Shown here: positions 4,469 to 19,671 of the stretch, piece after piece | Position numbering within the stretch: the first letter of the stretch is position 1 | Layout of the letters: each line of letters begins with the position of its first letter | From: a virus | Length of the DNA: 23,156 bases | Virus record (IMG/VR): IMGVR_UViG_3300021197_001907 | Span: 1-23,156 of that record | Strand: one strand, 5' to 3' | Position numbers and translations under genes: made by a program | Notes under the pieces: generated by a model | Database searches by the model: none | Seen by the model: only the letters and a program-made list of their open reading frames with translations | Told to the model about the DNA's origin: nothing

Positions 4469-5286
4469 ACAATTGAGCTGTAGGCTACGCAATAAACGTA
4501 GTCTTCGTCATATTGAGTGGGGTATATCCCATAAGTGGTCTTAGTGTTTTTGGCGTTTTCTTTTACCTGTGCTATAACCCGTTTATGAATATTCCCCTGC
4601 TCTCTCAACTTTTTTTCATTAATAGCATAATAATACACCTTTTCTCGGACGTTAGCAAGATCAAAAAAAAGATTTTCTTCCCCTGTTTCAAAGTTAACAA
4701 GACCATACGATACGATACGGCTAATCTGATGAGGAGGGGAGATGTTGCCCATAACACTATCGCTATGTCGGAGAACATTAACCATATGCATAGTAGGGAC
4801 CATTAATTCATTTAGCTTGTCATAAAAGCCTATGATTGGCAATTCGCCAAGTATTTGCTCAAGTTTCGTGTTATCAATTAAAATGACCTTTTCGAGTAGA
4901 CCAGAGCGAGCATACTCTTGAAAAACGTTAAAAGTGACCCTTTGCTGCAGCCTGGCGGTTTCTCCGAGCAATTCTTCGTCAGAATAAACATACAACACAT
5001 GTAAATTACATTTTTTTATCTGTTCTAAAATACGTAAGGATGCTCCGCTAATCACACCGCTGCCGCCCAATATAAAGAGCACATCGTTCTCAATGCCCTT
5101 AAAGAAGCGCTTCAAGTTTCCCAAGGACTCTTCCTGCTCCTCGGGGGTTATGGCAAGCTTCAAGCCATAAGTGCTTGGTGTCCGCTTAAGCCCCACATCC
5201 ATTTTATAGACTTTGTATTGGGGATATTGAGCGAACCTATCGGCAATAGCACACCCCGCCTTACCAAGACCAATTATTGTTTCCAT
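4456..5286 (-). CDS. diverged tubulin/FtsZ-like protein
   Basis: This 276-residue protein aligns by eye with the FtsZ/tubulin nucleotide-binding domain. Residues 3 to 16 (IIGLGKAGCAIADR) match the first glycine loop. Residues 68 to 83 (DVLFILGGSGVISGAS) sit where FtsZ has DMVFIAAGMGGGTGTGA. The following segment, SDEELLGETARLQQRV...LIDNTKLEQIL, matches TKPFNFEGKKRM...TIPNDKLLKVL in order and spacing. A C-terminal domain ends in TQYDEDYVYCVAYSSI. The signature GGGTGTG is degraded to GGSGVISG and I see no NxDxxD/E synergy loop, so polymer GTPase activity is uncertain. Phage tubulins such as PhuZ and TubZ position or segregate DNA in infected cells, and a similar role is inference. It overlaps the polymerase gene by 13 bases and precedes gp32. 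A Rossmann-type protein of another family is the main alternative. Confidence 0.75.
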   Translation of the reverse strand: METIIGLGKAGCAIADRFAQYPQYKVYKMDVGLKRTPSTYGLKLAITPEEQEESLGNLKRFFKGIENDVLFILGGSGVISGASLRILEQIKKCNLHVLYVYSDEELLGETARLQQRVTFNVFQEYARSGLLEKVILIDNTKLEQILGELPIIGFYDKLNELMVPTMHMVNVLRHSDSVMGNISPPHQISRIVSYGLVNFETGEENLFFDLANVREKVYYYAINEKKLREQGNIHKRVIAQVKENAKNTKTTYGIYPTQYDEDYVYCVAYSSIVQEK

Positions 5287-6464
5287 TCTCTCATATCCCC
5301 ATAACTTTTACCATATTTTACATTAACTCCGAACTTTCCTAAAGCAGTATTTGAGAAATGTTCAATTAGAGAATTGATCATGGATGGCATTTCAATGTTT
5401 GTTACATCTAATACAACCTCATCATGCACGCAAAATGCAACAAATGACTCCTTGCCCTGAAGATACTTGTCTAGCTTGATCATTTGGCGCAATACAACAT
5501 CGGAGCAAGTGCTCTGAATAAGATAGCTCATTGCATGATGCGCATCGGCTGCTATGGTCCTGCCAAAGGGATTCTTAACTTCACCATTGCTCCAATACTT
5601 CTTTATTACCCTCTGCTTGTCATAAGCCCTATCACTCATCAAATCTCGGGATTGGGGGTTATAAAGCCATGCAAAAAACCTTTCCTTTGCGTCCTCGCGG
5701 GTAAGGGTGCTCTTATAGACGTTTTTGCGGTTCCAGTCATGAACATCAAAGTCTGGCTGCTCCATATCCGACAAAGCCAAAAAGGTTCGCAGCTCGGCGC
5801 CGTTAAAATCAAGCGAAACGAACCAATCATTGGTCGGCGTGACAACTTTTCGGAACTTCTTGTCCATTGTAAGGATTGGAAAACTGTTTTTCCTGGTTGT
5901 CAGGCGCCCTGTCTTGGTACCAAAGATGTTATAATCACACGAAAGTGAAATCTGGCTTAATTTTTGTGTAAAGTTACGTGCTCGCTTCTCGTGCATGATG
6001 TCTCGGAGAGCCCAAGGGTCAATCTGAACTTTGCGGTGCTTTATATCGTGCAAAATCTTAGCTAGATCCACCAAAAAGTCATAGTTTTCGGGCTTCTCCT
6101 GGTTTTTCAAAACGTGCTCTGTGATCTTGTTTTTCATTTCGCAATATTCTCGCAAGAAACGCTCGTTAACGAGGTCAAAAAAGCAGTTTTCAGTAAGATC
6201 TATTTTAGCCGTCGTAAAGGCACGTAGGAGCGCCTTCAATCTTTCATTAATGGTTTCCCACTCGTGGGCGAGATGGACCGGACAGGCGTCTTCTAGAGCC
6301 TTTTGGGCGTATAGGAATGCATACTCCACATTCGTCCGGTCCTGAAGTAATGCAGAGTAACTCCAGGTGTGGGTTAGGTCGTCAGGAATGGTGTCAAAGT
6401 GCAACTCGTTGTTGCAATAGACTCCGACACATTCTTCTTTGTTGTCAAGTGTCTGAAATAGCAT
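5274..6464 (-). CDS. polA: family A DNA polymerase, short form without exonuclease domain
   Basis: This 396-residue enzyme should extend primers during phage replication. It has TGRLT at 185 to 189, motif A SLDFNGAELR with D219 and E224, an O-helix R256, K260, F264 and Y268 in E. coli Pol I spacing (R754, K758, F762, Y766), Q317 in QSTCSD, and motif C VHDEV with H347, D348 and E349. All catalytic positions are therefore present. Asn replaces the usual Gly after Tyr of the O-helix. The N-terminal 170 residues are too short for, and lack the motifs of, a 3'-5' exonuclease, so proofreading would need another protein. T7 polymerase is about 700 residues. T4-like phages normally use a family B enzyme. 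The ATG overlaps the stop of the virion gene (TAATG) and has no ribosome site, implying coupled translation, or an internal promoter near 6551 to 6579. Confidence 0.95.
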   Translation of the reverse strand: MLFQTLDNKEECVGVYCNNELHFDTIPDDLTHTWSYSALLQDRTNVEYAFLYAQKALEDACPVHLAHEWETINERLKALLRAFTTAKIDLTENCFFDLVNERFLREYCEMKNKITEHVLKNQEKPENYDFLVDLAKILHDIKHRKVQIDPWALRDIMHEKRARNFTQKLSQISLSCDYNIFGTKTGRLTTRKNSFPILTMDKKFRKVVTPTNDWFVSLDFNGAELRTFLALSDMEQPDFDVHDWNRKNVYKSTLTREDAKERFFAWLYNPQSRDLMSDRAYDKQRVIKKYWSNGEVKNPFGRTIAADAHHAMSYLIQSTCSDVVLRQMIKLDKYLQGKESFVAFCVHDEVVLDVTNIEMPSMINSLIEHFSNTALGKFGVNVKYGKSYGDMREWKQ

Positions 6465-12618: not shown

Positions 12619-14472
12619 CTAATTGCCCCTGCCCAAGACCAGCTCCTCGACCAAGCCCTCAAAAGAGCCCCTTAGACCGGGTATTTTGACAACCATTTTC
12701 TCTACAACTAGACTGTTACTACCACCACCCCTTATCTCTTTTTTGATTGTCTCCAGAAGGGGTCCGCCCTCTCTCATAGAGTAGGTTGTGTCTCCAGAAT
12801 GTGTCACTTTGGTGGGCGTAGAGAAACCCTCATTGATTGCCACTGTACCAGTGCTTATATTATCTCCGACAGCCGTGGTACCGAAGCCAGTGGCTGTTGC
12901 TATCGCCAGACCTAAGCCGGGCAGCGCACCAAGCGGTCCTGCTGCCATACCACCAGCGACTGCGCCAGCTAGTGCCAATATTGTACCAAAACCGCCTGGC
13001 ACGCTCTCTGATAGGTCTAGTATACCCTGCACAACGGCAGCGAATGCGTCAACCAGCGGCTTCACGGCGACAGCTGTCTGCAACATGATAAACTGTAACT
13101 TCTCCATCGTGGAGGTTGCGTTCTGGGTGATCTCTTCCATCTCAGAAGTTGTAAATGAAGTGTCCCCAAGCCTCATGGCGACCTCATCTTGTGACTCGCC
13201 GAGGAGTTTTGAGGCGGTCGCGACGTCGCGGATACCAAGAGCATTTGCAATATTTAACTTAGCATATCTACCCATATTATCAAAATCCACACCTGAGAGG
13301 CGGATCCTTTCTCTAACTATTTCTAATCTTTCGGAATCACTCGCCATCAACAGCTCGTTTGTGCTAAACAGGTCTGTTCTAAGAATCTGGTTAAGCTTTC
13401 CTGCTATTTGCGCAGATCCCTCAAATGTGTTAAACTGGTCTCCAAATATTGAGGTTAGATCTGCAACGCTTGTTCCGGTCCTGCGTGCCTCAATGCTTAA
13501 CTCCTTGAAGACATCCACTGCATTATCGCCAAACTGTGACAAGTGCGGCAACGCTTGGGCGAAATCACGAGCAATGACTGCCGGGGGAATCTTAAGTGCT
13601 TGACCTAGCCCTATAATCTCCCTTTGAGTGGCAGCAGCATCTGTTGCAGACTGCCCGAAAGCTAAGGTTAGAGTATTCATTGTCTCAGCAGTGGTACCAG
13701 CATCAATTCCCAACTTCTGTAGCTGGGCTGCCTGCATCGTCACGCTCTTCCTAACGCTATCTGACAAGAATCCAAATTGTGCGAATTCCTCTCTGAGTGA
13801 CATTTGGGCGCCGGCGACCTGCTGAAAGGATAGAGCCAGGTCTAAATTGTCAAACGTTAGCCCAATAAACATGTCTCTAGCACCGGACATATCTCCCGTC
13901 ATTGCAACAAAGCTTGCGCGGGTTGCGTCTACTTGGACAGCTGCTATAAGAGTAGACTCTGCAAACTTTTCAAAGATTGATACGGCGACGTTTCCAGCTG
14001 TGACAATTCGACCTAGAGATTTGCGGGCTCGTGATAGAGCAACTGATAAACCTTCACCCGATTTCTTAGAGTTCATGAGCTGGCGAAAAAGCCCCTTGGA
14101 GTTATCAGCCGAGAGACCGAGCTTTGAGGCGATGCTACCTACTAGACCATCAGTCTCTTTTTCAATACCTTGGATCGCTTCCTGAGTCTTTTGCTGCTCA
14201 CGTAAATTTTCTGTGATTTGCTTTTGAATCTCAGCATAAGCTTGCGTAGCATCTGTTCTCTGCTTGGCGGACTGCGCGCTCGACAGCAGCAACTCATATC
14301 TAACCTTGGCTATCTTTAACTCTTCCTCAGATTGAGTAACTGCCCGTTCCGCCGCCAATCCATATTCTTTAGCCGCCGCTGCTGCAGCCTTTTCGGTCTC
14401 CGCTAAGTCCCTAGAGACCTCAAGGAGTTGTTGTTGAATTTGTAATTTTTCTTGTTCAGTTATATCAGCCAT
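12619..14472 (-). CDS. 29: tail tape measure protein (gp29-like)
   Basis: This 617-residue protein sets tail length and fills the tube before DNA ejection. The first 110 residues are long charged helices rich in Gln, Glu, Lys and Ala, typical of a coiled coil. The middle is Ala/Gly/Ser/Leu-rich and helical. Residues near 490 to 535 form a glycine/alanine-rich hydrophobic stretch (ILALAGAVAGGMAAG and following) like the membrane-insertion segments of tape measures. Its length is close to T4 gp29 (590), so a tail near 90 to 95 nm is expected at about 1.5 angstroms per residue; that is an inference. The ATG at 14472 has GGGTGAG about 5 bases upstream. A tail assembly chaperone with a probable frameshift lies upstream, as in most tailed phages, separated by a terminator and one small gene. 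Confidence 0.88.
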   Translation of the reverse strand: MADITEQEKLQIQQQLLEVSRDLAETEKAAAAAAKEYGLAAERAVTQSEEELKIAKVRYELLLSSAQSAKQRTDATQAYAEIQKQITENLREQQKTQEAIQGIEKETDGLVGSIASKLGLSADNSKGLFRQLMNSKKSGEGLSVALSRARKSLGRIVTAGNVAVSIFEKFAESTLIAAVQVDATRASFVAMTGDMSGARDMFIGLTFDNLDLALSFQQVAGAQMSLREEFAQFGFLSDSVRKSVTMQAAQLQKLGIDAGTTAETMNTLTLAFGQSATDAAATQREIIGLGQALKIPPAVIARDFAQALPHLSQFGDNAVDVFKELSIEARRTGTSVADLTSIFGDQFNTFEGSAQIAGKLNQILRTDLFSTNELLMASDSERLEIVRERIRLSGVDFDNMGRYAKLNIANALGIRDVATASKLLGESQDEVAMRLGDTSFTTSEMEEITQNATSTMEKLQFIMLQTAVAVKPLVDAFAAVVQGILDLSESVPGGFGTILALAGAVAGGMAAGPLGALPGLGLAIATATGFGTTAVGDNISTGTVAINEGFSTPTKVTHSGDTTYSMREGGPLLETIKKEIRGGGSNSLVVEKMVVKIPGLRGSFEGLVEELVLGRGN

Positions 14473-14481
14473 TCACTCACC

Positions 14482-14823
14482 CTACCTAAATGGCCACTTA
14501 ATGCCTGTTACGTTTTCAAACTTTTTAATTGAAGAGTCCAGAAGAGACTTGCTCTGATAAGTTCTGCGATCATTAAGACCATACCTGGTTATTGCCTCTA
14601 GGTGGTTTTTTTCACGACCCACAGTACGGGCAAAGGACTCAACATCGGCTCGCGAGCCAACGACTTTCATTGGCATACTGACGCCGCTAAACATTGCGTC
14701 TAGAATCGTCTTTGTCCATGAGCCAAACATTCTAAGCCAACTCTCATTGAGACCTTGCTCGCGAGCTTCATCAAAGTTAATTACGATTTCTACAATTTTA
14801 TCTTCTTTTATTTGATCAGGCAT
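14482..14823 (-). CDS. small protein between chaperone and tape measure, function unknown
   Basis: This protein of 113 residues has an acidic, strand-forming N-terminus (KIVEIVINFDEA) and then a helical body (WLRMFGSWTKTILDAMF, SRADVESFARTVGREKNHLEAITRYGL, LLDSSIKKFENVTGIKWPF). I do not recognise the family. I chose the ATG at 14823 because GGGGAG lies 8 bases upstream; an ATG at 14841 would place that ribosome site inside the gene. It ends 9 bases before the tape measure start, so the two are almost certainly co-translated from one message, and a role in tape measure folding or tail initiation is a fair guess. No membrane segment, signal or metal site is visible. Confidence 0.75.
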   Translation of the reverse strand: MPDQIKEDKIVEIVINFDEAREQGLNESWLRMFGSWTKTILDAMFSGVSMPMKVVGSRADVESFARTVGREKNHLEAITRYGLNDRRTYQSKSLLDSSIKKFENVTGIKWPFR

Positions 14824-14877
14824 TAGATGTTCTCCCCTCAATAACCACTAATAAGTAATTAGTTTTAAATAAAAATA

Positions 14878-14900
14878 AAGCCGGAATGGCTTTCCGGCTT
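14878..14900 (-). terminator. rho-independent terminator after the tail chaperone
   Basis: AAGCCGGAA and TTCCGGCTT are perfect 9-base arms with a 5-base loop, followed on the minus strand by TTTATTTTTATTT. It begins right after the chaperone frame's stop at 14902. It should cut transcription between the sheath/tube/chaperone genes and the tape measure/baseplate genes. Confidence 0.85.
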
Positions 14901-14901
14901 A

Positions 14902-15120
14902 TTAATCAGGCAAGTTTGATGGCAATGAGAATGTGCTCTTTTTGTTGCTAGCGTTTTGAACCGCCTCTTTTTCATCCTCCAGCTGCTTGACGAGTCTTTT
15001 TGAAAACCAAGTTCTCAAGCCAACCGGTAAATTATATGCTTGCTGAAAGTCCCACTTCCCGTGATACATTAAGAAGAAAAACTGTTCATAAACATTTTTT
15101 ATATAATCATCGGTTAGGCC
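14902..15120 (-). CDS. frameshift-read C-terminal extension of the tail chaperone
   Basis: These 72 codons lie in the frame one base downstream of the gp26-like gene and overlap its last codons. The frame reads GLTDDYIKNVYEQFFFLMYHG, then LPVGLRTWFSKRLVKQLEDE, a helical, chaperone-like segment, and ends in NLPD. Read as a separate gene it would have to start at the ATG at 15201, deep inside the gp26-like gene with no ribosome site and with an odd Cys/Arg-rich beginning, so I take it as an extension made by ribosomal frameshift at the T7 run (15121 to 15127). The fused product would be about 352 residues. By analogy with gpG/gpGT chaperones of other tailed phages, the extension would bind the tape measure. 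A sequencing error in the homopolymer would also explain the layout, by making it one gene. Confidence 0.72.
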   Translation of the reverse strand, partial: GLTDDYIKNVYEQFFFLMYHGKWDFQQAYNLPVGLRTWFSKRLVKQLEDEKEAVQNASNKKSTFSLPSNLPD

Positions 15121-15961
15121 AAAAAAAGTCCGCCGTAAACGGCACCTCCATATTCTGTTCGTGCCCGCAGGCTGAACAATAAAAATTCTGTGACATGTCA
15201 ACGTTTGGAGTAACAGCCTTGACCGCGTTTCTTAGATGTCGCGAATCTCGTGCTGGCATTAGCTCAACAAACTGCTTGATAGTATTTTTATCCGTGTCAT
15301 CGTTTAGTGCGACGATGCAACGGGTAAGCTGGTCTGTAAGGTTAGTCTCCAGGGCAGAAGCCCTTCTCTTTGTGGCGTTTTGAGAAATGGATGTCTCATC
15401 GTCACCCGTTAGCAGTCTAACCTCTGCCGTCACCTTTGTGAGGGGCAGCTCCACATTAAAGGTGCCGCGAGTCGTCTCCTCAGCAGCGTGGTCCGCTGAG
15501 CCCTCTCCAGGGTGGATGCGTGCGTCACTCAAATCAAATGTATAAGAAGACTTGTTACCGCAGGCGGGGCAGTTTACCTTGGTTTCATATTCTGATCCAT
15601 AGCCTGTAATTCTGGCGGCTACAAGAATAGCATTTCGGTCTCCGATCAACAGGGATCCGGGATCAATGGTCTTGTCAACCAGGACATTCTCTAGGAACTT
15701 CTCTAGAGCCAATCCCTTGCGCAATAGGGTCTGACTAGTTAGAATGTCTTCATCTCTTGCGGTCATGTAACGAATCTCCACGGTGCTGTTACCGTGGAGA
15801 GGGTGACTTGTGCCGTAGAAGCGACCACCACTTGGTAGTTCGACAAAATCAGTTGGGGTTACAAACTCTAATACAGATGTAGTAGTCTTAGGGGCAGCCT
15901 TTGTGGGCTGCTTAGTTTTAGCGGACGCTGCTTTTGTGCGCCCTTGATTGTTTCTAGCCAA
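15107..15961 (-). CDS. 26: gp26/gp51-type baseplate hub assembly protein, likely tape measure chaperone
   Basis: This 284-residue protein has the T4 base plate protein family pattern ELPSGGRFYG at 41 to 50, RYMTARDEDILTS at 64 to 76, and a zinc-binding pair of knuckles: C131 and C134 (CPAC), and C262 and C265 (CSAC). The N-terminal 30 residues are Lys/Ala/Thr-rich and probably disordered. In T4 such proteins act in hub assembly and are not abundant in the final particle. Position directly before the tape measure, and the frameshift layout at its end, point to the tape measure chaperone role. The start is TTG at 15961, supported by GAGGT 5 bases upstream; no ATG in frame occurs until residue 66. 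It lies 59 bases after the tube gene, in a leader that holds a TATAAT-like box without a good -35. Confidence 0.85.
   Translation of the reverse strand: MARNNQGRTKAASAKTKQPTKAAPKTTTSVLEFVTPTDFVELPSGGRFYGTSHPLHGNSTVEIRYMTARDEDILTSQTLLRKGLALEKFLENVLVDKTIDPGSLLIGDRNAILVAARITGYGSEYETKVNCPACGNKSSYTFDLSDARIHPGEGSADHAAEETTRGTFNVELPLTKVTAEVRLLTGDDETSISQNATKRRASALETNLTDQLTRCIVALNDDTDKNTIKQFVELMPARDSRHLRNAVKAVTPNVDMSQNFYCSACGHEQNMEVPFTADFFWPNR
15121..15127 (-). other. putative ribosomal frameshift site (seven T)
   Basis: On the minus strand GAC TTT TTT TGG ends the gp26-like frame four residues before its stop. The downstream frame continues as TTT TTT GGC. Slippage of +1 (skipping one T) or -2 (re-reading two) on tandem Phe codons joins them. 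Phage tail chaperones are classic users of such sites, most by -1 and some by -2. Confidence 0.65.
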
Positions 15962-16020
15962 TTCATACCTCTTTGTTTAAAATATTATACCTTATTGATA
16001 CTCTCAATTTAAGTTATATT

Positions 16021-16620
16021 TTAGCTAAGCGGCGTTGCACCATCAGGCGTGAATAGACGTTTCAAAACTCCCTCGCCTGCAGGCTGCGGGCGACCCTCTG
16101 GAATCACGTAGGAAGCCCAGTCGTATCTAAGCTCCAAGTCAATCGTAGCTAGATCCTCACCCTCATACGTATAATCGTTAAAACCAACAGATACGATGAA
16201 GGGATTGTTTAGTCTCCACTCCTCTAGGAAGTTTCCGTCTTCGTCAATCGCTCTGATGACCACCTCACCCAGTTCAAAATTAGCATTTCCTTTGCCAATC
16301 GTGCTTAGGGTCTCGCTGCCGGAAGTGCCATCTACGTTTGACGGAACGTTGTAACCGCTCTTGCGGAGAATTGAAAGTATGTTGCCTGTTGCATCTGGGT
16401 TAACCGGATCAACCAAAGAAACAGTAACCGTATTCCACTCAACCTTACCAGGATAGTAGAAAGTGTGGTTTAGGAACTTATGCTGTGACTGAGTCACGCT
16501 AAACGTTGGCTTGGTGACACTCCTAGCATAGAACTGAGCTGCCTCGTTCATCTTGGGGATACTCACCAAAAATCTAAATTGTCTCTTTGGCTCAACTTGT
16601 CCAGAACTCCAGAATGGCAT
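16021..16620 (-). CDS. 19: tail tube protein (gp19-like)
   Basis: This 199-residue protein forms the inner tail tube, stacked as hexamers inside the sheath. It shows the T4 gp19-type beginning (PKRQFRFLVSIPKM), a strand pair around VTKPTFSVTQSQHKFLNHTFYYPGKV with the conserved 'F-Y-x-G-x-V-x-W' motif, and the second barrel half VVIRAIDEDGNFLEEWRLNNPFI. It is slightly longer than T4 gp19 (163 residues). The ATG at 16620 has AAGGAG about 10 bases upstream and follows the sheath stop by 48 bases, the usual sheath-tube order. No separate promoter is clear in the gap. The C-terminal tail (PEGRPQPAGEG) is flexible in appearance. Confidence 0.95.
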   Translation of the reverse strand: MPFWSSGQVEPKRQFRFLVSIPKMNEAAQFYARSVTKPTFSVTQSQHKFLNHTFYYPGKVEWNTVTVSLVDPVNPDATGNILSILRKSGYNVPSNVDGTSGSETLSTIGKGNANFELGEVVIRAIDEDGNFLEEWRLNNPFIVSVGFNDYTYEGEDLATIDLELRYDWASYVIPEGRPQPAGEGVLKRLFTPDGATPLS

Positions 16621-16668: not shown

Positions 16669-19600
16669 TTAGTCGTCAAACGAAGCGCCAGTCCTCGTAA
16701 TGATGAAGTCTAGTGCAATGAATTCAATGGCGCGGGCGGGCTTGAGGTAGATCTTCGCATATAGAATGTTTCTATCAATTAGATCATCCGTTGTCGTAGT
16801 GTTGTCAAGCACGACCCTAAAGTCTGTCAATCCGAATCTTGCCTTTACGTCTCCCAAGAATGGGTTTACAGCTGAGGTGAATCGGTCCCATGTCGCCTGA
16901 ACATTGGGCTCAAACAAGATTCCGTTTGCAATTCTAGAAATCTCCTTCTTAACAAAGATTAGTAGACGGCGCACGTTAATTCTATCAAGCGCAGAGCGTG
17001 TGACCTGTAGCGTCTTTTGACCGAAGATTACAATGCCCTCGTTGGGGAAGGTGGCAATCGGGTTGATATTAGCTGCATATAGATCGTCACGATCCTTAGA
17101 GTTTAGTCTCATCTTTACATTGGTGACTGGCAGACCAGCTGCACCATTTGAGAGCCCACCTCTAACAAAGCCGGCGGGTGCGAACCATAACTCAGTGCGA
17201 GCCTGTGAGCTTCCGAAGGTGCCCAATGCCACCACAGAGGGGGGCACATCCACTAGACGACCAGTTCTGGTGTCTTTAACTTGGACCCAGGGGAAGAAGC
17301 AGCAGCCATAACTGTTGTTTAGCGACCTCGTTCTTAGAGCGCTAACGGCATTGGCAACATTGGGTCGGTTAGCAACCGCAGACTCCGTGTTCTCGGTCGA
17401 AGGCAGGTAAGAGTGCTGAATATCAATAACACCCAGAGTATCGGCGCGCTCTTCGCAAACATCCAACAAGTGCTCGGTGAGGGTTGAATTCCAAACACCC
17501 GGCACTGTCATTAGGTTTGCCTCTACAACATCTGGGTCGGCAACCGTATCAATAGCCCTCTTGATGGTGTTAAACGCATAGTTAGTGATCTCAGTCTTAG
17601 AAGCCAGTACATCTGTGTTTCTGAACGGCTCCTTTTCCTTGATATTCAATCCATCAAAGCCACCAAACATTGGTGCTGTGAAGCGATCAAATCCAGCATC
17701 TAGTAGAGTCTTGTATGTGTTTGCTCCGGTGGCAGTATAACTCTTTCCTGATCTCTGTGAGCCTGATAGGTGGTTGAAGCCTTCCGAGCCTGAGTGTAGG
17801 TCGTTCATTGAGAAGGCGAAAGAATGCTCTGTTCCGGGAACCGAAACGGTGCCACTGGTGATCGTAAACGCATTTGTTTGGCTTGGGAGCATGCGAACCA
17901 TATCGTAATAGCTCGGATCAAATATTTGACTGCTCGCTTCTCTTGTGGTTTGAATACCAAAGTACGCATCAGTGGGATCAGTCAGTGAGCCTGCGCTAGC
18001 GCTGACTCTTAATCTAATCGCTGGGAATTCAAAGCTAGCGCTGAAGCCGGCAACCACTCCTCCAAGCTCATTGCCACCAACGGCAATGAATACGCCGTCG
18101 TCGCTGCCAAGAGTATAATCTGGCGACCCTAGGCGGATACGAGGCTGAATGGCATGAGCGATAACCTGGTTTCCCTCGACTATAGTCATTGCCGGGGTAC
18201 CAGCACCAGAAACAAATGTTCCAGCAGTGCCCTGAATCATCTGTGGTCCGGTAGAAGCCGAGGTGAACCCCCAACTATTGAAGCGAGGGGGTCCAAAGTA
18301 ACCGAAAGGCAAGGACTCTGCTGAGACGCCTCCGTTGTCAACAGACTCATCCATAACAACATAAACGTATTGTGATACATTCCGGTACGTTCCATAATGC
18401 CTCAATCTTCTCTCGTCATTATCCCATTCGGCGTAGCTGTCTCCAATTCTTCTGGCGATATAATTTTCAGAGTTGGGATTTAGATTAAGGTTGTCAAAGC
18501 GCTCCAGGTATACAGGCTTCTCATCGCGGTCCTTAACTCTTCTGAGGACAACTGAGAATGTGCCGTAGGGATCAACATTCGGATAGGCGGGGGCGCGTAG
18601 CTGCTCAACAGAAACCTTGATATTTCTATTAGCCCACTCGCCCTGGTTTCGCCCGACTAGCTTAAATAGCTTGGGAGAATTCTCCAGAAGGAACGCACTA
18701 GAATCACCTAAGTCCTGTGCACGGAAATACGGTGTCTCGGCGTTTTGAAAGTCCGTTCGGTGATCTTGCCAGACATATGTGCTACCCGTCTGAATCGCTA
18801 GAATAACACCATAGACGCCGCCAGCGCCAGTGGAGGTCACATTCTGACCGTGGAACTGATCAAACGTTTCTCCGAGCCAATATGTGTAAAAGTTTGGATT
18901 GTTAGAATTGTTAACAATTTGAGAGTTTGTCTGAGAGGCGTTGGTATTGAACACCTTGCGGATGTATTTTTCGCTATCTCTATCAAAATTGAAGCAAACT
19001 TTCTGGGACACAGTAGCGTTAAAGCCGTTGCCCTCGCCGTCTGTCAAGACTTCAGCGATAAATTCGGAGTTGGACCCCTGAGACTGAATCATGACTGCGG
19101 TGCCTGATACTTGTGTCTTGGCAGTGCCGTCAGCGAATCCGATCATAGACCCTGTTAAGCGAATTGAAGAGCCCGCCTCAAGGTACCAAATAGCAGCCAA
19201 AGATCCAGTGGACGCCTGTGTAGCAGAGCCTGAGTTGACTAGAAACAGACCATACGCGCCGGCGTTGAGGTCCAGCCGTGAATCGGCGGCGTTCTTAACA
19301 AACCAGCCAGCTTTTGCGTCTTGTGTGGCGTCGGCATCGCGGTGCTTGGCACCCAAGAGTCGCATGAAGGTGACAGGAGCTTCGCCTGAGTTCAGCCAAG
19401 CCTGCGCTGCGTATGCACCATAAGTGGGACCATCAAACTCTCCAGAGCGCCAGTTGTCGCCACCATCTGCGCCTGCGTCAGGCGAACCAAAGACGCGAGT
19501 AAACTCATCAAATGAGGATACCTTAGTTGGAACCATTCCTGGTCCCTGGCGAGTTCTTCCGATGATGACCGGACCCACAGCTGTCGGCTCTGCTGGCAAT

Positions 19601-19671
19601 TGTGAACGATCAATTTCGTTTGTAAAGACACCAGGGGAAATGAACTTGAATTTTCTAGCTCCACTTGCCAT
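16669..19671 (-). CDS. 18: tail sheath protein (gp18-like), enlarged
   Basis: This 1000-residue protein forms the contractile sheath. The N-terminus ISPGVFTNEID...VGPVIIGRTRQGPGMVPTKVSSFDEFTRVFG is the standard sheath opening. The C-terminal 270 residues (NFGCCFF-type core with SYGCCFFPWVQVKD, PSVVALG, LYAANINPIATFPNEGIVIFGQKTL, RRLLIFVKKEISR, and the ending YLKPARAIEFIALDFIITRTG) form the conserved inner domain that carries the linker to the next ring. T4 gp18 has 659 residues. The extra 340 or so lie in the middle (about residues 110 to 690), Ser/Gly/Thr-rich and beta-like, probably surface-exposed outer domains. The ATG at 19671 has AAGGAG about 9 bases upstream, and a late-promoter-like AATAAATA lies 38 bases from the start. 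Confidence 0.97.
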   Translation of the reverse strand: MASGARKFKFISPGVFTNEIDRSQLPAEPTAVGPVIIGRTRQGPGMVPTKVSSFDEFTRVFGSPDAGADGGDNWRSGEFDGPTYGAYAAQAWLNSGEAPVTFMRLLGAKHRDADATQDAKAGWFVKNAADSRLDLNAGAYGLFLVNSGSATQASTGSLAAIWYLEAGSSIRLTGSMIGFADGTAKTQVSGTAVMIQSQGSNSEFIAEVLTDGEGNGFNATVSQKVCFNFDRDSEKYIRKVFNTNASQTNSQIVNNSNNPNFYTYWLGETFDQFHGQNVTSTGAGGVYGVILAIQTGSTYVWQDHRTDFQNAETPYFRAQDLGDSSAFLLENSPKLFKLVGRNQGEWANRNIKVSVEQLRAPAYPNVDPYGTFSVVLRRVKDRDEKPVYLERFDNLNLNPNSENYIARRIGDSYAEWDNDERRLRHYGTYRNVSQYVYVVMDESVDNGGVSAESLPFGYFGPPRFNSWGFTSASTGPQMIQGTAGTFVSGAGTPAMTIVEGNQVIAHAIQPRIRLGSPDYTLGSDDGVFIAVGGNELGGVVAGFSASFEFPAIRLRVSASAGSLTDPTDAYFGIQTTREASSQIFDPSYYDMVRMLPSQTNAFTITSGTVSVPGTEHSFAFSMNDLHSGSEGFNHLSGSQRSGKSYTATGANTYKTLLDAGFDRFTAPMFGGFDGLNIKEKEPFRNTDVLASKTEITNYAFNTIKRAIDTVADPDVVEANLMTVPGVWNSTLTEHLLDVCEERADTLGVIDIQHSYLPSTENTESAVANRPNVANAVSALRTRSLNNSYGCCFFPWVQVKDTRTGRLVDVPPSVVALGTFGSSQARTELWFAPAGFVRGGLSNGAAGLPVTNVKMRLNSKDRDDLYAANINPIATFPNEGIVIFGQKTLQVTRSALDRINVRRLLIFVKKEISRIANGILFEPNVQATWDRFTSAVNPFLGDVKARFGLTDFRVVLDNTTTTDDLIDRNILYAKIYLKPARAIEFIALDFIITRTGASFDD

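Follow-up and report, generated by a model that had tools for sequence, protein, structure and literature searches.

The T4 protein gp26 has long been described as a component of the baseplate hub. Together with gp51 it is counted among the chaperones of hub assembly; gp51 is essential, does not occur in the particle and has no known function (PMC3004832). According to a review, long-tailed phages widely conserve G–T frameshifting, 'except T4' (PMC5009743), and a genome paper on the T4 superfamily detected no tape measure chaperone (PMC6509524). In the lambda gpG/gpGT and HK97-type systems two proteins are made from one start, the second domain lies in another frame without a start of its own, a slippery site is found near the end of the first frame and the gene sits between those for the tail tube and the tape measure. 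The same features appear to recur, including the slippery site expected of the G/GT class, conserved and close to where the first frame ends, in a locus lying entirely on the minus strand of a 23 kb fragment of a marine phage (IMG/VR record IMGVR_UViG_3300021197_001907, positions 1 to 23,156, hereafter the window). Unlike lambda and HK97, the protein involved belongs to the zinc-site PF12322 family, has no detectable sequence similarity to theirs, and would be shifted by +1/−2 at UUUYUUUGG rather than by the usual −1.

A gp26-type gene with a second open frame

The preliminary description of this locus, made from the sequence alone, had noted a gp26-like frame ending four codons after the Phe codons of a T7 run, a 72-codon open frame one base on that lacks a start of its own with a ribosome site, and a terminator right after the stop of this second frame, and was found to be correct in all details tested (Table 1). 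The gp26-type gene ends in GAC TTT TTT TGG CCT AAC CGA TGA (protein end DFF-WPNR-stop) and its product passes the curated cut-off of PF12322 (T4_baseplate; 68.2 bits against 24.5), a profile that, in relatives, ends at the slip site. The second frame (T) begins GGC CTA ACC GAT, with its first codon at 15120 and its TAA stop at 14904–14902, and its first start-type codon is an ATG at codon 18 that shows no Shine–Dalgarno pairing. The gene order tube, G/T, tape measure is also found in immuto and SP-15. Elsewhere on the minus strand of the window, a 396-aa DNA polymerase (5274–6464) matches the C-terminal part of its family only (phrog_17 positions 961–1237), and the tail sheath (16669–19671) is unusually large (1000 aa), with its phrog_23 sheath match limited to residues 422–998.

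Table 1. Features at and around the gp26-type locus of the window.
Feature	Position	Strand	Basis
Tail tube protein, upstream neighbour	16021..16620	−	phrog_4542, E 2e-18
Shine–Dalgarno AGAGG of the short form	15968..15972	−	Sequence reading
Short form (G), gp26-type protein, 284 aa, TTG start, zinc-ribbon-like CxxC pairs	15107..15961	−	PF12322, E 1.1e-18; phrog_150 baseplate hub, E 8e-22; AF2 model, pLDDT 88
Shine–Dalgarno-like GGAGGTG, conserved, 15 nt 5′ of the T run, possible stimulator	15143..15149	−	Duplex energy; GAG codon bias
Putative frameshift site TTT TTT TGG CCT	15116..15127	−	TTTYTTTGG[C/T]CT in 77/77 relatives; both Phe wobble positions always T
T7 run in the putative frameshift site	15127-15121	−
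Second frame (T), gp51-type domain, 72 codons plus TAA, without own start	14902..15120	−	pN/pS 0.087; phrog_634 (gp51), E 0.97 alone; profile-level match to the T domains of cyanophages and jumbo phages
0-frame stop codon TGA	15107..15109	−
Terminator-like hairpin, GC stem and T-rich tail, directly 3′ of the T frame	14866..14900	−	Fold
Small ORF of 119 aa separating the T frame from the tape measure	14482..14841	−	No family match
Tape-measure-like protein, 617 aa, downstream neighbour	12619..14472	−	phrog_167 tail length tape measure, E 3.5e-5

A scan of viral contigs returned 80 relatives with 34–90% protein identity, 77 of which reach the site. All 77 keep TTTYTTTGGYCT together with an open +1 frame and carry the in-frame TTTYTTTGG[C/T]CT motif (TTTTTTT in 76; TTTCTTT in one, L064). 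Their 0-frame stop follows 3–11 codons past the second Phe codon (n = 77), the +1 frame is open for 55–88 codons where complete, and the −1 frame closes within 2–17 codons with one exception (45 codons), being closed after 2 codons in the window itself. The T domain of the window does not lie in the −1 frame of a classical X_XXY_YYZ heptamer, but in the +1/−2 frame. Both Phe codons of the site end in T in 41/41 non-redundant members, as against 22% TTC among the other Phe codons, and a comparably conserved Phe column elsewhere in the gene does vary. In three relatives (L033, L035 and L036) the 0 frame extends 11 codons past the site, versus 3–6, giving more overlap with the T frame. A Winogradskyella MAG contig (L335) has TTTTTTTTCCCT as its site, i.e. 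UUC in place of UGG, and keeps the +1 frame, so that UGG is not essential.

A second clade, comprising Flavobacterium phage immuto and its kin (79 loci), carries TTTYTTTGG or close variants. TTTYTTTGGCCT is present in 74/79 and the five close variants share the open +1 frame; counted by site, TTTTTTTGGCCT occurs 40 times, TTTCTTTGGCCT 34 times, TTTCTATGGCCT four times and TTTCTTTACCCT once, with the +1 frame open in every case. The +1 frame is also used in Bacillus SP-15, Listeria LIS04, Streptococcus GXN1, Streptomyces BRock and LuckySocke, and Microcystis Mel-JY01. Single protein queries from SP-15 and from Ackermannviridae returned too few relatives in the viral-contig scans for a survey of the site. 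A gp26-type gene with a TTTTTTTGGCCT site was also found in a candidate division WOR-3 MAG chromosome (CP070664, L329), where it is either an integrated phage or assembly contamination.

The T frame is under strong purifying selection, also 5′ of any ATG. Across 13 pairs of relatives, pN/pS was 0.087 for the whole frame and 0.10 for its first 17 codons, which in the window precede the only ATG of the frame, versus 2.2 and 2.6 when the other two frames of this DNA were analysed. A second frame that lacks its own start and is nevertheless selected at the protein level is characteristic of the G/GT class, and the open two-frame arrangement is not due to chance.

Homologous T domains in cyanophages, jumbo phages and T4

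In the cyanophages (Kyanoviridae gp26/'gp51') the G and T domains are homologous to those of the window and T likewise overlaps right after the stop, but here, and not in the window, the shift would be −1 at T_TTT_TTC preceded by a Shine–Dalgarno-like element. The heptamer lies exactly 10 nt 5′ of the stop in 130/130 cyanophage-type loci and the Shine–Dalgarno-like element 7–9 nt upstream of it in 128/130 (mean duplex energy −7.0 kcal/mol vs −1.9 in controls), while the −1 frame, where the contig covers it, encodes a conserved domain of 57–66 residues homologous to the T domain; T_TTT_TTC thus placed reads as a textbook −1 site. The same heptamer occurs in PA5oct, GAP32, Salmonella PHA46 and Agrobacterium Atu_ph07, and T_TTT_TTT in Stenotrophomonas RAS14, Sinorhizobium phiN3 and Acinetobacter SH-Ab 15599. 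In Ackermannviridae, a Vibrio phage and Cygsa01 the T domain lies in an overlapping −1 frame with no classical heptamer. None of the regions inspected carries a joined gp26 annotation, the T domain being unannotated, a small hypothetical protein or 'gp51'. S-SCSM1 (L192, NC_070962, 4640–4874) has T_TTT_TTC, but its gp51 domain is encoded in the other frame, in contrast to L277, with which it shares 79% identity; this reflects either an indel error or a real change. RNA structure downstream of the site was rejected as a stimulator, the window clade showing little of it (mean z −0.4) and the cyanophages somewhat more (mean z −1.7).

T4 gp51 matches PF12322 over residues 1–201 (E 3.9e-52) and carries a 48-residue C-terminal extension, whereas T4 gp26 stops at the family boundary. 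The C-terminus of gp51 matches the cyanophage T domain (hhalign 96.7%, E 3e-10), and profile comparison connects the window-type T domain to those of cyanophages (84%), jumbo phages (93%) and Firmicute phages (89%); in these T-domain comparisons 0/100 column shuffles reached the real score. The direct hhalign comparison of window-type T with the gp51 C-terminus gave no match (0.1%), as did BLAST of the T domain against phages and a Pfam search with it. It is through intermediate profiles that homology of the frameshift-encoded domain to gp51 (phrog_634) is supported, and with it the proposed link between T4 gp26/gp51 and the G/GT chaperones. The two T4 genes are divergently oriented; in RB43 the gp26 and gp51 genes are in tandem, both belonging to PF12322. 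A maximum-likelihood tree places Straboviridae gp26 and gp51 in one clade (99/98), grouped with weaker support (87/72) with the cyanophage −1 members.

To judge from domain composition and phylogeny, T4 gp26 and gp51 are paralogues, gp51 being an in-frame fusion that ends in a T-type domain. They belong to the same family as the window protein, whose short form corresponds to gp26 (PF12322) and whose predicted long form corresponds to gp51 (PF12322 plus C-terminal extension), with the difference that T4 has two divergent genes and no frameshifting where the window has one gene in two frames. The simplest history would be that a single frameshifting gene was duplicated in the T4-like lineage into permanent short and long forms, i.e. 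genes 26 (G) and 51 (GT); that the frameshift is ancestral is an inference, as the tree leaves the root unfixed. Separately, T4 gp26 (L096, 5349–5882) weakly matches the gp28 family (phrog_1140, E 9e-4) and a gp51 model matches the 'GT-like fusion' gp27–gp28 of phage Moon (L327, 8607–10245; E 3.5e-3), in which the two genes were annotated as joined through a frameshift. A third relative may thus exist in gp28, and the frameshift annotated in Moon may be misplaced.

Probable recoding, its direction and the role of the products

Programmed recoding at the window site, as put forward in the preliminary description, is very likely, because the site is deeply conserved, the second frame is selected before any start and homologues from cyanophage-type and jumbo phages independently use a −1 heptamer in this position. 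One start would give two proteins: most ribosomes would end at the gp26-type stop, yielding G (284 aa), and a minority would slip at UUU-UUU-UGG-C into the +1 frame and read 72 more codons, yielding GT, i.e. gp26 plus a gp51-type helical domain. In the simplest +1 slip the peptidyl-tRNA-Phe would leave UUU for the overlapping UUY one base further along, a move that fits all +1-frame sites, including the CTA variants, GXN1 (TTC TTT C) and BRock/LuckySocke (TTT C). The immuto-clade UUU CUU UGG C resembles the RF2-type +1 frameshift site (CUU UGA C), but immuto-type and window sites have the sense codon UGG in place of a stop and no Shine–Dalgarno element 3 nt upstream.

The direction of the slip is less clear-cut. 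The GGAGGTG element of the window clade has a mean duplex energy of −7.4 kcal/mol, vs −2.8 in controls, and its Glu codon is GAG in 22/22 (background 33%). At dnaX-type sites a Shine–Dalgarno spacing like the 15 nt seen here is expected to pull ribosomes backward, and the element therefore counts against a simple +1 slip. Such a pull, from a distance greater than the 7–9 nt of the −1 cyanophage sites, could instead drive a −2 slip, in which the second-codon peptidyl-tRNA (on UUU, CUU or CUA) would re-pair with UUY two bases back; wobble-tolerant re-pairing of this kind is possible at all window-type and immuto-type sites, including those with CTT and CTA. On the other hand, GXN1 (TTC TTT CGT) and BRock and LuckySocke (CTG TTT CGC/CAG) offer no −2 re-pairing and fit a +1 slip on UUU-C, and the immuto clade lacks a Shine–Dalgarno-like element at that spacing. 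We favour the +1 slip and consider −2 about half as likely. The predicted products would differ by one Phe at the junction, the −2 long form having one extra residue.

By analogy with lambda gpG/gpGT, G and GT probably serve the tape-measure protein as assembly chaperones, with the T domain probably recruiting the tail-tube subunit. We consider it highly probable that gp26 is G and gp26–gp51 is GT, made by recoding and acting as tape-measure/tail-tube chaperones, and that in T4 duplication replaced the frameshift; the conservation of the site, the selection on the T frame, the gp26/gp51 homology and their single clade are observed, and slippage, product ratio and binding partners are inferred. 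That a zinc-site T4-type protein uses the G/GT device, as the preliminary description had proposed, is supported as to the recoding and the T4 link, and less so as to homology to the lambda/HK97 gpG proteins. The AlphaFold model of the window G domain (pLDDT 88) has as its best PDB fold match 2ob9_B, the HK97 tail assembly chaperone, which is not significant (prob 0.51, E 0.54; next match prob 0.07), Pfam and PDB-sequence searches gave no similarity of window G to lambda-type gpG, with no match at all in the latter, and Foldseek of a T4-like gp51 model against the PDB found none either. A G/GT-like mode of working is well supported, while descent from the lambda-type gpG family is only hinted at.

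Recoding could also be real with its products acting in the building of the baseplate hub, in line with the place of both T4 proteins on the list of hub assembly chaperones and with some genetics that puts gp26 in the hub (PMC3004832). The position of the gene between tube and tape measure, the G/GT design, the absence of gp51 from the particle and the HK97 chaperone fold hint speak against this, and we regard it as unlikely as an alternative to tape-measure/tube chaperones. The T4 tape measure gp29 is itself a hub protein, and for this reason the hub and tape-measure readings overlap.

Less likely still is that the T domain is a separate protein, made by termination–reinitiation or from a non-standard start, rather than part of a fusion. 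T codon 7 is an in-frame ATG in many relatives, TAATG stop/start overlaps occur in Cygsa01 and Vibrio phage D495, and cyanophage 'gp51' is annotated from an internal ATG as a separate ORF of 46–55 aa starting inside the domain. Relatives in which the downstream frame has its own start and ribosome site had been named as what would speak against a frameshift; in-frame ATGs are indeed common, but they are not conserved and mostly have no ribosome site, and about a third of the non-redundant relatives contain no ATG, GTG or TTG within the first 30 T codons, so that these, like the window, have no usable start. A separate T protein would also leave unexplained the wobble-invariant slippery site and the low pN/pS of the codons before the first ATG, and T4 gp51 is physically a fusion.

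Transcriptional slippage on the T7 run, which would put the second frame in phase, is most improbable: the run is interrupted in L064 and in 39/79 immuto-type loci (TTTCTTT, TTTCTAT) that keep the same two-frame design, which rules out homopolymer-dependent slippage for these members, and the cyanophage sites consist of six T plus C. An assembly error or a decayed gene whose true sequence is a single frame has a negligible chance of being correct and is in practice refuted by conservation, since, error-prone as homopolymers are, dozens of independent metagenomes, along with the isolate genomes of Mel-JY01 and immuto, agree on the length and frame of the run, the variants with interrupted runs (CTT, CTA) need the same shift, and both frames are strongly selected.

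Implications for the T4 gp26/gp51 family

The window belongs to a large family with a very likely frameshift. The G/T arrangement is probably the common state throughout the T4 gp26 (PF12322) family, cyanophage-type and jumbo phages using a −1 slip, and it is quite probable that the whole T4 gp26/gp51 family consists of G/GT tail chaperones, with frameshifting (+1 or −1 by lineage) as the common state that T4 lost by duplication. We found no earlier report of a gp26/gp51 frameshift in the open-access literature searched.

If this reading is true, the 'except' status of T4 (PMC5009743) and the unknown role of gp51 (PMC3004832) would share one answer, T4 being the exception because duplication into 26 (G) and 51 (GT) replaced the frameshift. 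The tape measure chaperone that went undetected in a T4-superfamily genome (PMC6509524) fits this reading as well. It would also assign a role to 'baseplate hub' genes across thousands of genomes of T4-type phages, cyanophages and jumbo phages, and would correct their annotation, in which gp51 ORFs are missed or started too late. Finally, the site would be a deeply conserved +1 or −2 recoding site of bacterial viruses, a type of which few natural examples are known.
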